Origin: Hyphomicrobiales bacterium
GTDB taxonomy: Bacteria > Pseudomonadota > Alphaproteobacteria > Rhizobiales > Rhodobiaceae
Direction: 5' to 3'
Length of the DNA stretch: 64,000 bases
Assembly (NCBI GenBank): GCA_002869065.1
Contig: PKTR01000005.1
Location: forward strand, 124,001-188,000
The notes beneath the pieces are model-generated. The model ran no database searches, was not told the origin of the DNA, and saw nothing but the letters and a program-made list of their open reading frames with translations. A program made the translations under genes and the position numbers. Shown piece by piece: positions 222 to 58,906 of the stretch. How positions within the stretch are numbered: position 1 is the stretch's first letter; each line of letters opens with the position of its first letter.

Positions 222-622
222 AGTGCCAGTCGGCCTGTAAGCCGGGTTCTGTAAGGCGGGCGCGAAGCCCGCGTGACGACCATTCATCTGGGACGCCCGT
301 TACCGGACGCCTCGTGCAACCAACCCGGACGACTGGCCTGGAAACGGGCCTGAACGGCTTGCGCCATCCGCGTCGTCCCTATTCGGTCTTGCTCCCGGTG
401 GGGTTTACCATGCCGCCCCCGTTGCCGGCGGCGCGGTGGGCTCTTACCCCACCCTTTCACCCTTACCGGCTGGCTGACGCCGCCGGCGGTTTGCTTTCTG
501 TGGCCCTTTCCCTAGGGTCACCCCCGCCGGGCGTTACCCGGCACCGTGTCTCCGTGGAGCCCGGACTTTCCTCCCCGGCGGGTTTTCACCGCTTGCCGGA
601 GCGGCCGTCCGGCCAACTGGCC
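222..622 (-). ncRNA. rnpB: RNase P RNA (bacterial class A)
   Basis: This is the catalytic RNA of ribonuclease P, which trims the 5' leaders of tRNA precursors. Read on the minus strand it shows the family hallmarks. The P1 helix forms between GCCAGTTGGCC near 621-611 and GGCCGACTGGC near 235-225. The conserved GAGGAAAGTCCGGGCTCC block sits near the 5' end, and the 3' end carries the ACAGAACCCGGCTTACAGG block. The 5' end is set by the promoter at 629-657, whose expected start point falls at about 622, exactly at the base of P1. The 3' end is accurate to a few bases. The length of about 400 nt is normal for alphaproteobacteria. Confidence 0.95.
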
Positions 623-20666: not shown

Positions 20667-21335
20667 TTACTGGCTGTCGCCCGACATGCCGGACATGCCG
20701 CTCTGGGCATCGCTGGCCGCATCCTTGACCGCGTCAGCCGCATCCGACGCGGTGTCGGCGGCCGCGTCAGCAGCGTCGCCCGCCGCGTCCTTCACGGCTT
20801 CGGTGGCTTCGCTCGCCGTCTCTGCCGTGGCCTCGGCCGCATCGCTGGCCGTTTCCTTGGCAGCTTCGGCGGCATCGCCGGCAGCTTCCGTCGTCGCCTC
20901 GGTGGCTTCGCCGGCGGCATCGGTCGCGCTCTCGGTCACGCCCTTGACTGCGTTCATTGCCTTTTCACCGGCGTCCTTCGCGGCGTCCATGGCCTCGCCG
21001 GCGCTCTCCTTGGCCGAATCCATCGCCTCGCCCGCCGCCTTGGTCGCGTCGTCGGCAGCTTCTTTCGCAGCATCCATGGCTTCGCCGGCCGCCTTCGAGG
21101 CGTCTTTCGCCGCTTCCTTGGCCATTTCCTTGGCCGCTTCGCCAGCCGCCTTCGCCGCTTCACCGGCGGCTTCGGCCGCTTCGCCGGCCTTGTCCATCGC
21201 TTCGCCGGCCTTTTCGACGGCTTCCTGCTTCGCCTCGCCTGCCGGAGAGGCTTTTTCGGCCTCCGTCTTGCTCGAATCGTCACAACCGGCAAGCGCAACG
21301 GCCGCAACGAACATCAGTGCCAGAGTTTTCTTCAA
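20667..21335 (-). CDS. LEA-like repeat lipoprotein
   Basis: This 222-residue protein begins with a lipoprotein signal ending in LAGC (Cys18). The rest is a continuous low-complexity helix of Ala, Glu, Asp, Lys and Gly. Units such as GEAMDAAKEAA recur with about 11-residue spacing, like group 3 LEA or apolipoprotein helices. The start is taken as TTG at 21335 because GGAGG sits six bases upstream; another TTG at 21347 would contain that GGAGG. The protein is likely periplasmic and lipid-anchored. A desiccation, osmotic or envelope-spacer role is inference. The C-terminus ends in SGMSGMSGDSQ. Confidence 0.85.
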   Translation of the reverse strand: MKKTLALMFVAAVALAGCDDSSKTEAEKASPAGEAKQEAVEKAGEAMDKAGEAAEAAGEAAKAAGEAAKEMAKEAAKDASKAAGEAMDAAKEAADDATKAAGEAMDSAKESAGEAMDAAKDAGEKAMNAVKGVTESATDAAGEATEATTEAAGDAAEAAKETASDAAEATAETASEATEAVKDAAGDAADAAADTASDAADAVKDAASDAQSGMSGMSGDSQ

Positions 21336-21628
21336 AATTGCCTCCAATGGTTTCTGAATAGCCCGGTTTTAAGCAGTTTTATGTTTTTCCAGCCACAAAA
21401 CACGCTGCAGCCGGTCACCGGAAAGTCAAAACAATGCCCCCATCGACACCGTTTCCTCAATTTGAACAGTGATCCGCCAAGAATACGGTGATTTTTCGGC
21501 GCTTTGAGGCGGAGAAATTGCGCCAAGTGTCGCGCCAGAATGTCACTTCATCATGACGAAATGGCACATCGCCGAAATAGTTCGCCGGCGAATCTCGAAA
21601 ACTGCACCGGTTTTTTTGAGAGCCCCAC

Positions 21629-24310: not shown

Positions 24311-25297
24311 ATGCTGATCAAGATCCCCCGCGGATGGGAATTGCCGGAACGCCTCGCCTCGCCGCCTGAAGCGGTCTTCAACCGCCGCCGCTTTCTGGAA
24401 GCGAGCGGTCTGGTTCTTGGCTCCGCCCTGTTGACCGGCTGCGGTGACAGCAGCTCCAGCGCCGGCGTGGCCGAGAGCGATCTTCCGGCCGATCCGAGCG
24501 CCGGCCTCTACCCGGTCGAGCGCAACAAGCGCTTCATCGTCAACCGGCCGATCACCAAGGAAAGCGTTGCCGGCAGCTACAACAACTTCTTCGAGTTCGG
24601 CTCGCACAAGCAGATCCAAGCCGCCGCCTCTCACCTGCCGATCCGCCCCTGGGAACTCCGCGTCGAAGGCGCCGTCGAAAAGCCTTTCACCATCGCCATC
24701 GACGAACTGCTGGCCAAGATGCCGCTCGAGGAGCGCGTCTACCGGCTGCGCTGCGTTGAAACCTGGGCGATCACCGTGCCGTGGTCCGGCTTCCCGCTTG
24801 CCGAGCTGGTCAAGCTCGCTCGCCCGCTGTCGAACGCCAAATACCTGCGCATGGAAACCTTCATGAATCCGGAGGTCGCGCGCTCGCAGAAACAGAGCTG
24901 GTATCCCTGGCCTTATGTCGAGGCACTGACGATGGCCGAGGCGACCAACGAGCTGGCGTTTATGGTCACCGGCGCCTACGGCAAACCGCTGGCGCGCCAT
25001 TTCGGCGCCCCGCTGCGCCTCGCCGTGCCGTGGAAATACGGCTTCAAGTCGATCAAGTCGATCACCCGCTTCGTGTTCGAGGAAAAGCGCCCGACCACAT
25101 TCTGGGAAGCGGTCGACGCCCGCGAATACGGCTTCTGGGCCAACATCAACCCGAAGGTGCCGCATCGCCGCTGGAGCCAGGCCAGCGAGCGCCTGCTGCC
25201 CACCGGCGAGCGCCGCGATACGCAGCTTTTCAACGGCTACGCGGCCTTCGTCGCCGACCTCTATCCCGACCTGACCGACGAGACCTACTTCCGCTAA
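24311..25297 (+). CDS. msrP: Protein-methionine-sulfoxide reductase catalytic subunit MsrP (YedY)
   Basis: This 328-residue protein repairs oxidised methionines in periplasmic proteins using a molybdopterin cofactor. A Tat signal NRRRFLEAS lies at 24-32, and LLTGC follows at 41-45. The molybdenum-ligating cysteine is C148 in RLRCVETW. The C-terminal YGFKSIKSITR and FWEAVDAREYGFWANINP stretches are diagnostic. The start at 24311 puts the twin arginines in normal position. The haem membrane partner MsrQ is not encoded next to it. A palindromic repeat begins directly after the stop. Confidence 0.95.
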   Translation: MLIKIPRGWELPERLASPPEAVFNRRRFLEASGLVLGSALLTGCGDSSSSAGVAESDLPADPSAGLYPVERNKRFIVNRPITKESVAGSYNNFFEFGSHKQIQAAASHLPIRPWELRVEGAVEKPFTIAIDELLAKMPLEERVYRLRCVETWAITVPWSGFPLAELVKLARPLSNAKYLRMETFMNPEVARSQKQSWYPWPYVEALTMAEATNELAFMVTGAYGKPLARHFGAPLRLAVPWKYGFKSIKSITRFVFEEKRPTTFWEAVDAREYGFWANINPKVPHRRWSQASERLLPTGERRDTQLFNGYAAFVADLYPDLTDETYFR

Positions 25298-25298
25298 A

Positions 25299-25365
25299 AC
25301 GTATCCCCGAACCGCAGGACCGCGTAAGCGAACAGTGGGAGCCGGTTTTCGGGACAGAATCCGCG
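25299..25365. repeat. Rhizobial-type intergenic palindromic repeat, copy 2
   Basis: This 67-bp imperfect inverted repeat shares with copies 1 and 3 the ATTCCCGAACCG-type arm (here ATCCCCGAACCG), the AGTGGGAGCCGGTTTTCGG core and the closing GAATCCGCG. It starts immediately after the msrP stop and could affect mRNA 3' stability. Confidence 0.8.
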
Positions 25366-25664
25366 AAAGGAAAAAGTGGAGGCGTTTCACGCGACTCAAT
25401 AATCACGGGGAACACTCAACGCGAGCACGTAGGCGGCCCGTTTTTCATGCAACGCACAATCGTTCGTGATTGATATTTAGGCAGGATCAACGCGCACGCA
25501 TTTCCGGCAAACAGAATTCCACCACTCCGGTGGAACCAAAATGCCCGAGCCATGCCGCGCGCGCATGACCAAGGCCCCCACAAGACCAAACCACTAAAGA
25601 ACAGCCCATGAATAGGACAAAGGTCTCATAGTCTTTTGCCCTTCCCCTAGGTCAGGCATAAAGA
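25366..25664. other. Intergenic region, no gene seen
   Basis: This is AT-richer sequence between the msrP repeat and the terminator of the candidate sRNA. No open frame with coding character, tRNA or clear promoter was found. A second tandem sRNA, as in some rhizobia, is not recognisable here by eye. Confidence 0.4.
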
Positions 25665-25695
25665 CAAAAAAATACCGGGCCCTAGGGGCCCGGTA
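25665..25695 (-). terminator. Intrinsic terminator of the candidate sRNA
   Basis: TACCGGGCCC and GGGCCCGGTA form a nearly perfect stem with a three-base loop. It is followed on the minus strand by ATTTTTTT. The T run exists only for minus-strand transcription, proving the direction of the transcript. No protein gene ends near it; lsrB stops 250 bases upstream. Confidence 0.88.
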
Positions 25696-25800
25696 GTCAA
25701 TTGTCATACCGAAGTATGAGCCAATCACTTTACAGAGGGGAACAGCTGGAAGCAGTTATCGCCCAAAGGGAGGAGAGAGACGACACTTGCGATCAGCTGA
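25665..25800 (-). ncRNA. Candidate AbcR (alpha-r15) type trans-acting sRNA
   Basis: Directly downstream of lsrB on its strand lies a stretch of about 135 nt with no gene. It reads through CTCTCTCCTCCC (an anti-Shine-Dalgarno sequence), then TTCCCCTCT, then a CATAC-TTCG-GTATG hairpin (25718-25705). It ends in a very strong intrinsic terminator. A palindromic LysR-type box lies 57 bases upstream of the predicted start. In Sinorhizobium and Agrobacterium, AbcR sRNAs silence many ABC-transporter mRNAs by masking ribosome sites, are encoded beside lsrB/vtlR and depend on it. The synteny carB-greA-lrp-trxB-lsrB supports the match. The 5' end is approximate. Confidence 0.6.
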
Positions 25801-25805
25801 AAAAC

Positions 25806-25865
25806 AATATGGGTTATTTGATCTGCTTAATCCATAAGCAGAAACGCATAATTGCTATGCAATTA
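25806..25865 (-). promoter_or_regulatory. LsrB/VtlR-type box and weak promoter of the sRNA
   Basis: TAATTGC-TAT-GCAATTA at 25849-25865 is a perfect inverted repeat containing T-N11-A, the LysR-regulator signature. Downstream on the minus strand a weak -35 (TGGATT, 25834-25829) and a -10 (CATATT, 25811-25806) are 17 bases apart. A poor -35 with an upstream LysR box suits an activator-dependent promoter. Confidence 0.55.
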
Positions 25866-25942
25866 TTGCAGAGGACATGCGACTTTCCGCTAAAGGCACG
25901 GAAGCCCATGAAAAACTTGGGGAAATTGGGGTTTTTGCCGGC

Positions 25943-26833
25943 CTAGAAGGTCCAGCGCTCGGCTTTTGTCACCAGAAAGTCCCGGAACACCTTGATACGA
26001 GCGGTGTTCCGCAATTCCGACGGATAGACAAAATACGTATCGAAAACGGGTACATCTGCCCCCGGAATGAGCTGAACGAGCCCCGAATCGACTTCAATCA
26101 GATAGTCCGGAAGCATTGCGATGCCGACCCCGTGCTGCACCGCACGCTTGACCGCGACGATATTGTTGATGCGCAAGACCGCCGTGCGCGGATCGTCCGG
26201 ATCGCGTCCGGCGCTCTCCAGCCAGTTCATTTCCCGCAAGTAAGCCGGCGCATTTTCCCCGAACGTGATCAGCCGGTGATCGTCGAGATCGGCGACCGAT
26301 TTCGGATTGCCGAAGCGCTTCAGGTAACGCGGCGCCGCATAGAGATGGAAGTGGACCGAAAACAGCTTGCGCTGGATCAGGTCGGGCTGCACCGGCTGGC
26401 GCAGCCGGATGGCGACGTCAGCCTCGCGCATGGAAAGGTCGAGTTCCTGATCGGCCAGGATCACTTCGAGCTGGATATCGGGATAGAGCTCGACGAACTC
26501 ATCGAGCCGCGCGGTCAGCCAGGTCGAGCCGAGGCCGACCGTCGTGGTCACCCTGAGCTTACCCGAGGGGCGTTGCTTTGCATCCGTCAGCCTGGTTCGC
26601 ACGGCATCAAGCTTGAGGAACACCTCACGCGCGGTGCGAAACAACAATTCGCCCTGCTCGGTGAGGATCAGGCCGCGCGCATGCCGGTGGAACAGCGAAA
26701 CGCCGAGTTCCTGTTCCAGCGTGCTGACCTGACGGCTGACCGCCGACTGGCTCATCGCCAGGCTCTCGCCGGCGCGCGTGAAACTGCCCGCCCGCGCCGC
26801 AGCGTGAAAGATCCTCAGCTTGTCCCAGTCCAT
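25943..26833 (-). CDS. lsrB: LysR-family regulator LsrB/VtlR
   Basis: This 296-residue protein has the winged helix at 1-60, MDWDKLRIFHAAARAGSFTR through SQSAVSRQVSTLEQELG, followed by a LysR substrate-binding domain. The sequence and its place after trxB identify it as LsrB (Sinorhizobium) / VtlR (Brucella, Agrobacterium), which controls AbcR sRNAs, symbiosis or virulence and envelope traits. It contains no cysteine at all, so the cysteine-based redox sensing reported for S. meliloti LsrB cannot operate. It follows trxB by 70 bases in the same direction. Confidence 0.92.
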   Translation of the reverse strand: MDWDKLRIFHAAARAGSFTRAGESLAMSQSAVSRQVSTLEQELGVSLFHRHARGLILTEQGELLFRTAREVFLKLDAVRTRLTDAKQRPSGKLRVTTTVGLGSTWLTARLDEFVELYPDIQLEVILADQELDLSMREADVAIRLRQPVQPDLIQRKLFSVHFHLYAAPRYLKRFGNPKSVADLDDHRLITFGENAPAYLREMNWLESAGRDPDDPRTAVLRINNIVAVKRAVQHGVGIAMLPDYLIEVDSGLVQLIPGADVPVFDTYFVYPSELRNTARIKVFRDFLVTKAERWTF

Positions 26834-26903
26834 GGGCTTTCCCCTCTTTCGCCCCGGGCGGTCCGGCTGGCGCGGAAAAGACCGCGGCGCTGCCGTGGCG
26901 CTG

Positions 26904-27926
<1,023 letters not shown>

Positions 27927-58647: not shown

Positions 58648-58848
58648 ATGTCCATCGATCGCATGGTGATGGCCTTCGCAGGCGTCGTGATCCTCGCTTC
58701 CGTCCTGCTCGCCATCTACGTCAATGTCAACTTCCTGTGGCTGACCGCCTTCGTCGGCGCCAACCTGCTTCAGGCGTCGTTCACCGGTTTCTGCCCGCTC
58801 GCCCTGATCCTGAAGAAGATGGGTGTGCGCCCGGGCGCGGCGTTCTAA
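58648..58848 (+). CDS. DUF2892 small membrane protein (YgaP-like)
   Basis: This 66-residue protein has two hydrophobic helices: [16 protein letters not shown] and [17 protein letters not shown]. The [16 protein letters not shown] motif is diagnostic of the membrane domain of YgaP. In E. coli that domain is fused to a rhodanese; here it stands alone. AAGGAG precedes the ATG and a strong terminator follows. Confidence 0.92.
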
Positions 58849-58866
58849 TCACGAACCGCCCCTGAA

Positions 58867-58906
58867 AAACAAAAACGCCGCGCAAATCCCGCGCGGCGTT
58901 TTTTTG
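58867..58906. terminator. Bidirectional intrinsic terminator
   Basis: ACGCCGCGC and GCGCGGCGT form a stem with a seven-base loop, with AAAAA before and TTTTTTT after. It serves both the DUF2892 gene (plus) and the DUF1501 gene (minus). Confidence 0.88.

Follow-up and report, generated by a model that had tools for sequence, protein, structure and literature searches.

Studied AbcR RNAs come from Agrobacterium, Brucella and Sinorhizobium, where they form sibling pairs (PMC4211561), and Rhizobiaceae and Brucellaceae are described as normally carrying multiple copies (PMC3712013). S. meliloti AbcR1/2 carry two anti-Shine-Dalgarno seeds, aSD1 and aSD2, of defined sequence and place, and AbcR1 has a box (GCAT-N3-TG-N3-T, at −61 to −49) that is bound by LsrB (PMC8844928); in A. 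tumefaciens, VtlR binds abcR1 (PMC7486931). Agrobacterium LsrB is reported to have four cysteines, of which C144 and C273 are shared by the S. meliloti and B. abortus proteins, and C273 is needed for resistance to H2O2 (PMC11975290). Here we describe an RNA locus in a 64,000-nt stretch of DNA from a Hyphomicrobiales bacterium (the window, taken at its full length), which, at a probability of about 0.85 in our estimate, encodes a diverged, single-copy AbcR (alpha-r15) under an LsrB-type operator, i.e. a trans-acting sRNA that LsrB is predicted to activate. The features of the locus are as follows.

25666–25799, minus strand: AbcR-type sRNA of about 134 nt with three stem-loops (start predicted; end set by the terminator T tract)
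25743–25799, minus strand: stem-loop 1, closing helix CAGCUG/CAGCUG (from the fold; helices 1 and 2 covary)
25768–25775, minus strand: seed 1 (aSD1), CUCCUCCC, in the loop of stem-loop 1, identical to S. meliloti aSD1
25735–25742, minus strand: seed 2 (aSD2), UUCCCCUC, in the unpaired linker between stem-loops 1 and 2, identical to S. meliloti aSD2
25704–25719, minus strand: stem-loop 2 core with a UUCG loop (from the fold)
25666–25695, minus strand: stem-loop 3, the intrinsic terminator with T7 (terminator scan; covarying helix)
25806–25811, minus strand: −10-like CATATT, of which CATAT is kept in many relatives (alignment of homologues)
25846–25860, minus strand: predicted LsrB-type operator GCATAGCAATTATGC (GCAT-N7-ATGC), conserved in register with relatives
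25848–25866, no strand assigned: 19-bp perfect inverted repeat overlapping the operator (read directly)
25943–26833, minus strand: lsrB, LysR-type activator of 296 residues without cysteine (ORF and protein comparison)
26839–26847, minus strand: AGAGGGGAA, nine nucleotides within the ribosome-binding site of lsrB that are complementary to seed 2 plus the next base (possible feedback site, weak)
26904–27857, minus strand: trxB (Pyr_redox_2), upstream of lsrB (ORF and domain)

The strand-specific terminator, anti-Shine-Dalgarno stretch and UUCG hairpin to which the sequence-only reading had pointed are all present: the terminator has a 10-bp stem (25695–25673) followed by T7 ending at 25666 and is found on the minus strand only, the stretch is CTCCTCCC at 25775–25768 of the minus strand, and the hairpin spans 25719–25704. 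That reading had placed the RNA and its box together at 25665–25865; the RNA itself occupies 25799–25666, whereas 25846–25866 belongs to the promoter and lies outside it, and the second seed, UUCCCCUC, had been overlooked. Seed 1 stands letter for letter at the same place as in S. meliloti, seed 2 is exact between stem-loops 1 and 2, and the last of the three stem-loops is a Rho-independent terminator, as in AbcR RNAs.

Several of the single motifs occur at chance frequency (three terminator-like sites within 24500–27000 where 3.0 are expected and, across the 64-kb window, two occurrences of CTCCTCCC against 2.4 expected, one GCAT-N7-ATGC against 1.95, and seven matches to the published LsrB consensus GCAT-N3-TG-N3-T against 6.4), so the case for the RNA rests on arrangement, fold stability, conservation and covariation. 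Many relatives show the same succession of operator, −10, seed 1, seed 2 and terminator. The fold has a z-score of −4.1, none of 200 shuffles being as stable. An alignment of 21 sequences, window included, shows changes on both sides of 14 of the 19 tested pairs, and 87.6% of its cells pair compared with 21–46% in slid versions; its covariation score was reached by 0/500 shuffles, and the count of further pair types by 19/500. The structure tested was itself derived from this alignment, which somewhat favours it.

Kinship with AbcR had been proposed from the letters, with an Rfam covariance search as the check. At gathering scores, Rfam reports RNase P alone in the whole window (bacterial class A, 222–620, minus strand, 295.7 bits), and ar15 is absent. 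A permissive scan (E up to 10) aligns the RNA with the full length (1–112) of ar15 (RF02345) at 22.9 bits, under the cut-off of 40, so that taken literally there is no covariance-model hit; six families match in all, of which anti-hemB (RF02837) lies slightly above ar15 and the other four below both. The ar15 gathering score is a curators' cut-off and no biological trait, and we attribute the sub-threshold score to the range of the Rfam model, as only 8/43 scanned RNA-bearing relatives' loci pass it (3/16, 4/20 and 1/7 in three batches). These are L046, L056 and L083; L131, L132, L133 and L147; and L016 (Pleomorphomonas).

Models built from relatives bear out the kinship. Two covariance models trained without the window, R2 and R3, score the window RNA at 80.9 and 72.9 bits, respectively; the score given by R1 is not independent, since its training set contains the window. 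R2 lost stem-loop 1, leaving 11 pairs, because its alignment was sequence-only. Loci that pass ar15 were part of both training sets (L016, L046, L056 and L083 for R2, L016 for R3). A stricter test, prompted by L016 in R3, used an nhmmer profile whose 17 rows come from 16 loci, all of them scanned and found not to pass ar15; the window, L014 and L016 were left out. This profile finds the window RNA at 57.5 bits (E 9e-17), its same-genus relatives L011 and L012 at 60 bits, and all six tandem copies in L131–L133, which represent three genomes, at 19–31 bits (E 1.5e-8 to 5e-5). The latter pass Rfam ar15 with 92–126 bits, and the tandem ar15 pair beside lsrB suggests that these loci are Rhizobiaceae-like. 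That one profile, built from neither, reaches both supports common descent of the window RNA and the ar15-passing RNAs.

The perfect palindrome noticed upstream of the start is the 19-bp inverted repeat at 25848–25866, and the element conserved across relatives is GCATAGCAATTATGC. Promoter alignments used 64 of 96 R1 matches, those of at least 23.9 bits; for the operator, the best match in 21 start positions was taken in 63 homologues, window included and L010 dropped as a duplicate of L031. GCAT-N7-ATGC with seven or eight of its eight letters starts between −62 and −42 in 55/63 homologues, compared with 2/63 and 1/63 in control intervals of equal width further up- and downstream, so that the proposed LsrB/VtlR box holds. 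The literal consensus GCAT-N3-TG-N3-T is found at the window operator on the plus strand only, opposite to the RNA. If the S. meliloti box spacing is kept, transcription would start within about two bases of 25798, the position at which the ar15 match begins. A scan for sigma-70-like promoters in 24500–27000 found none, with 0.9 expected, which fits an activator-dependent promoter and is no proof of one. Searching the own genome for further LsrB promoters, as the box plus CATAT, gave four matches including this locus, compared with two for the reversed pattern; nothing follows from these numbers.

As had been read from the sequence, the RNA follows lsrB directly on the same strand. Along the locus stand carB, greA, lrp (on the opposite strand), a gene for a GMC oxidoreductase, a small ORF, trxB and lsrB, in this order: the genes of the proposed carB-greA-lrp-trxB-lsrB synteny are present, but lrp and trxB are not adjacent, as the oxidoreductase gene and the small ORF stand between them. 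A molybdopterin oxidoreductase gene (PF00174; 24245–25297, plus strand), presumably MsrP-like, faces the RNA gene. Elsewhere in the window, an ORF at 20667–21347 (minus strand) encodes an alanine-rich, repetitive, lipoprotein-like product.

Unbiased counts of the distribution were restricted to the 80 loci that were retrieved purely by LsrB similarity (L013–L092), since L101–L130 were picked for carrying the RNA. At 23.9 bits or more, R1 matches 50 of the 80: in 40 the RNA shares the strand of lsrB and begins 76–675 nt beyond it, and in 10 it lies elsewhere in the locus. In the other 30, none was seen within the locus DNA examined, and these include near relatives of the window LsrB (L013, L017, L022 and L025), indicating that loss or relocation happens. 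R2 matches occur in 136/297 genomes sampled from the order and in 6/289 from the class, own genome counted in both; the other five in the class are weak (E 3e-5 to 4e-4). Strict filters make absences in these surveys soft. A wider spread of AbcR may already be in print.

The single visible copy that had been noted stands in the whole genome: a blastn and R1 search of its 4,036,153 bases (99.19% complete), with 150 of 1159 first-look candidates scored, gave one convincing copy, where several per genome are described for Rhizobiaceae and Brucellaceae. The next best R1 match (L094; 20.6 bits, E 0.006) was rejected, having 0/4 seed words in 3083 bases. A match at 58730–58905 of the window (R1 22.1, R2 16.9 and R3 16.7 bits, at 58736) was also discarded; it is a seedless terminator after a small ORF. 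Copy number varies among relatives. Genome G143 has a second AbcR-type copy (L135, 2682–2827) with lsrB absent from the 5.3 kb around it, and several genomes of group g70 have two R2 matches far apart. Tandem copies past lsrB are seen in L085 and L086 (Sneathiella; three weak R1 matches each), L052 (two strong R1 matches, each with a box) and L061 (two R1 matches below E 0.01–0.06). At L042 (4100–4250) and L050 (4098–4250), a three-hairpin RNA past lsrB, under the same LsrB-type box, has CCUCCUCCC in each hairpin loop, terminator included, and lacks seed UUCCCCUC; it is apparently a rebuilt AbcR gene.

These data bear on three other accounts of the locus. The segment might have no transcript of its own and be the 3′ UTR and terminator of a trxB-lsrB operon, acting, if at all, after processing; it does share its strand and its one terminator with lsrB, whose stop lies about 145 nt before it. 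However, a conserved operator and −10 separate lsrB from the RNA, the RNA is found elsewhere in the locus in 10/50 RNA-bearing LsrB loci, and the L135 copy is free of lsrB over 5.3 kb, and we give this account only a slim chance. A small protein gene, for which an 81-residue ORF antisense to the RNA exists on the plus strand (25701–25946), has a next to negligible probability, given that homologues of the locus differ by many indels and that the base pairs are kept on the other strand.

A different C-rich sRNA merely resembling AbcR, either NfeR1 (ar14) or anti-hemB, is highly improbable, even though the anti-hemB score (24.0 bits) slightly exceeds that of ar15 and S. meliloti NfeR1 is described as LsrB-activated through TGCA-N6-GCAT, with an anti-Shine-Dalgarno seed (PMC10746234). 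The anti-hemB match stays below the RF02837 gathering score of 49.5, Rfam ar14 gives no match at E up to 10, the ar15-free profiles reach loci that pass ar15, among them the tandem pairs next to lsrB, and the Pleomorphomonas relative (L016) passes ar15 outright. The locus is thus best read as an AbcR gene under an LsrB-type operator.

The putative activator of this AbcR differs from its studied counterparts. The window LsrB contains no cysteine among its 296 residues and has V140 and V269 at the C144 and C273 positions of Agrobacterium LsrB (C140 and C269 in the numbering used here). Its best structure-chain match, 9hh1, would be A. tumefaciens LsrB, given that its cysteines stand where PMC11975290 places them. 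Among 118 distinct LsrBs (identical sequences merged; cut locus L143 left out), both cysteines are present in 8, one in 13 and neither in 97. In a quick tree, midpoint-rooted for drawing only, a single clade of 13 rows (SH-aLRT 98) holds all eight LsrBs with both cysteines and every C140 except that of L091. However, C269, the functionally needed one, occurs alone in a separate group of seven rows (L034, L035, L101, L102, L114, L123 and L124): one of the cysteines was gained or retained outside the clade, which speaks against a simple story. The RNA extends far outside the clade to which the pair is limited: among 77 distinct LsrBs fetched by LsrB alone, it is present with 38 of the 65 lacking both cysteines and with 17 of the 32 lacking any cysteine. 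Similarity to a query that itself lacks cysteine defined the sample, which biases these proportions and, to a lesser degree, the clade pattern.

Without a cysteine, the window LsrB probably does not have its activity set by an Agrobacterium-type thiol switch. The distribution is most simply read as a circuit that came before the thiol pair, and a firm statement needs a rooted tree. In a fuller account, on which we would place about even odds, the LsrB-to-AbcR switch would be an old circuit of the order that predates the LsrB thiol redox pair; AbcR would be a brake on nutrient uptake, brought later under redox control in the rhizobia-brucella lineage, the window LsrB would answer to something besides disulfide formation, and the RNA may, more weakly, dampen its own activator via the lsrB ribosome-binding site.

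Transcription of the window RNA, its activation by LsrB, the involvement of Hfq and the targets are predicted from relatives and from sequence. LsrB, whose gene immediately precedes the RNA on the same strand, would bind the GCAT-N7-ATGC operator before the start and bring RNA polymerase to a promoter whose −10 would be usable and whose −35 is presumably weak. The resulting RNA of about 134 nt would end at its own terminator. By analogy with studied relatives, base pairing of its two C-rich seeds to G-rich ribosome-binding sites would, probably together with Hfq, keep mRNAs for nutrient uptake from being translated.

Candidate targets were sought as seed complements 3–11 nt before an ATG. The seed-2 complement GAGGGGAA gave 14 matches (13 sites; reversed word, one), the seed-1 complement GGGAGGAG 12 (reversed, seven) and a permuted control word nine (reversed, two); not all of these 35 matches precede plausible genes. 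Transport genes, assigned by eye, follow 3/12 seed-1 sites compared with 0/9 permuted sites, both small counts. Genes after seed-1 sites include those for a DctP-type solute-binding protein, an ABC_sub_bind protein and an oligopeptide-type ABC ATPase, and those after seed-2 sites include an Lrp/AsnC regulator gene and lsrB; the counts are too few for a target claim. The 9-nt seed-2 complement in the lsrB leader is found in the window and in 0/128 other LsrB leaders, and 95/1000 shuffled leaders pair equally well with seed 2; feedback of the RNA on lsrB via the ribosome-binding site is a weak lead that the complementarity may hint at.

As an RNA, the window AbcR is ordinary in kind and sound in fact; its interest is in the cysteine-free activator, which is new as is the restriction of the C144/C273 pair to one clade, and in the circuit's reach across the order. 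The cysteine-free LsrB makes directly testable whether LsrB drives AbcR without thiol chemistry. With its conserved operator, this diverged AbcR, present once, gives an idea of how the ancestral circuit may have looked, and it can be studied free of redundancy between siblings. With 8/43 scanned RNA-bearing loci passing, the current Rfam ar15 model misses many members.

Among known systems, the multi-loop anti-Shine-Dalgarno RNAs SmelA075/A099 (PMC3927594) resemble the RNA of L042 and L050. NfeR1 (alpha-r14) of S. meliloti is LsrB-activated and has a similar palindromic box (PMC10746234); unlike it, the window RNA has no ar14 match at E up to 10. In Brucella, AbcR is reported to be activated by the LsrB orthologue VtlR (PMC7486931), as LsrB is predicted to do here; the two Brucella copies lie at distant places (PMC4211561), whereas the window holds one, beside lsrB. 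The AbcR1/AbcR2 RNAs of S. meliloti and A. tumefaciens (RF02345) form a pair, compared with the one copy, sub-cut-off ar15 score and cysteine-free activator of the window; like them, the window RNA lies 3′ of lsrB, folds into three stem-loops, carries both seeds, stands under an LsrB-type box (exact to the published consensus on the plus strand only) and has its own terminator.
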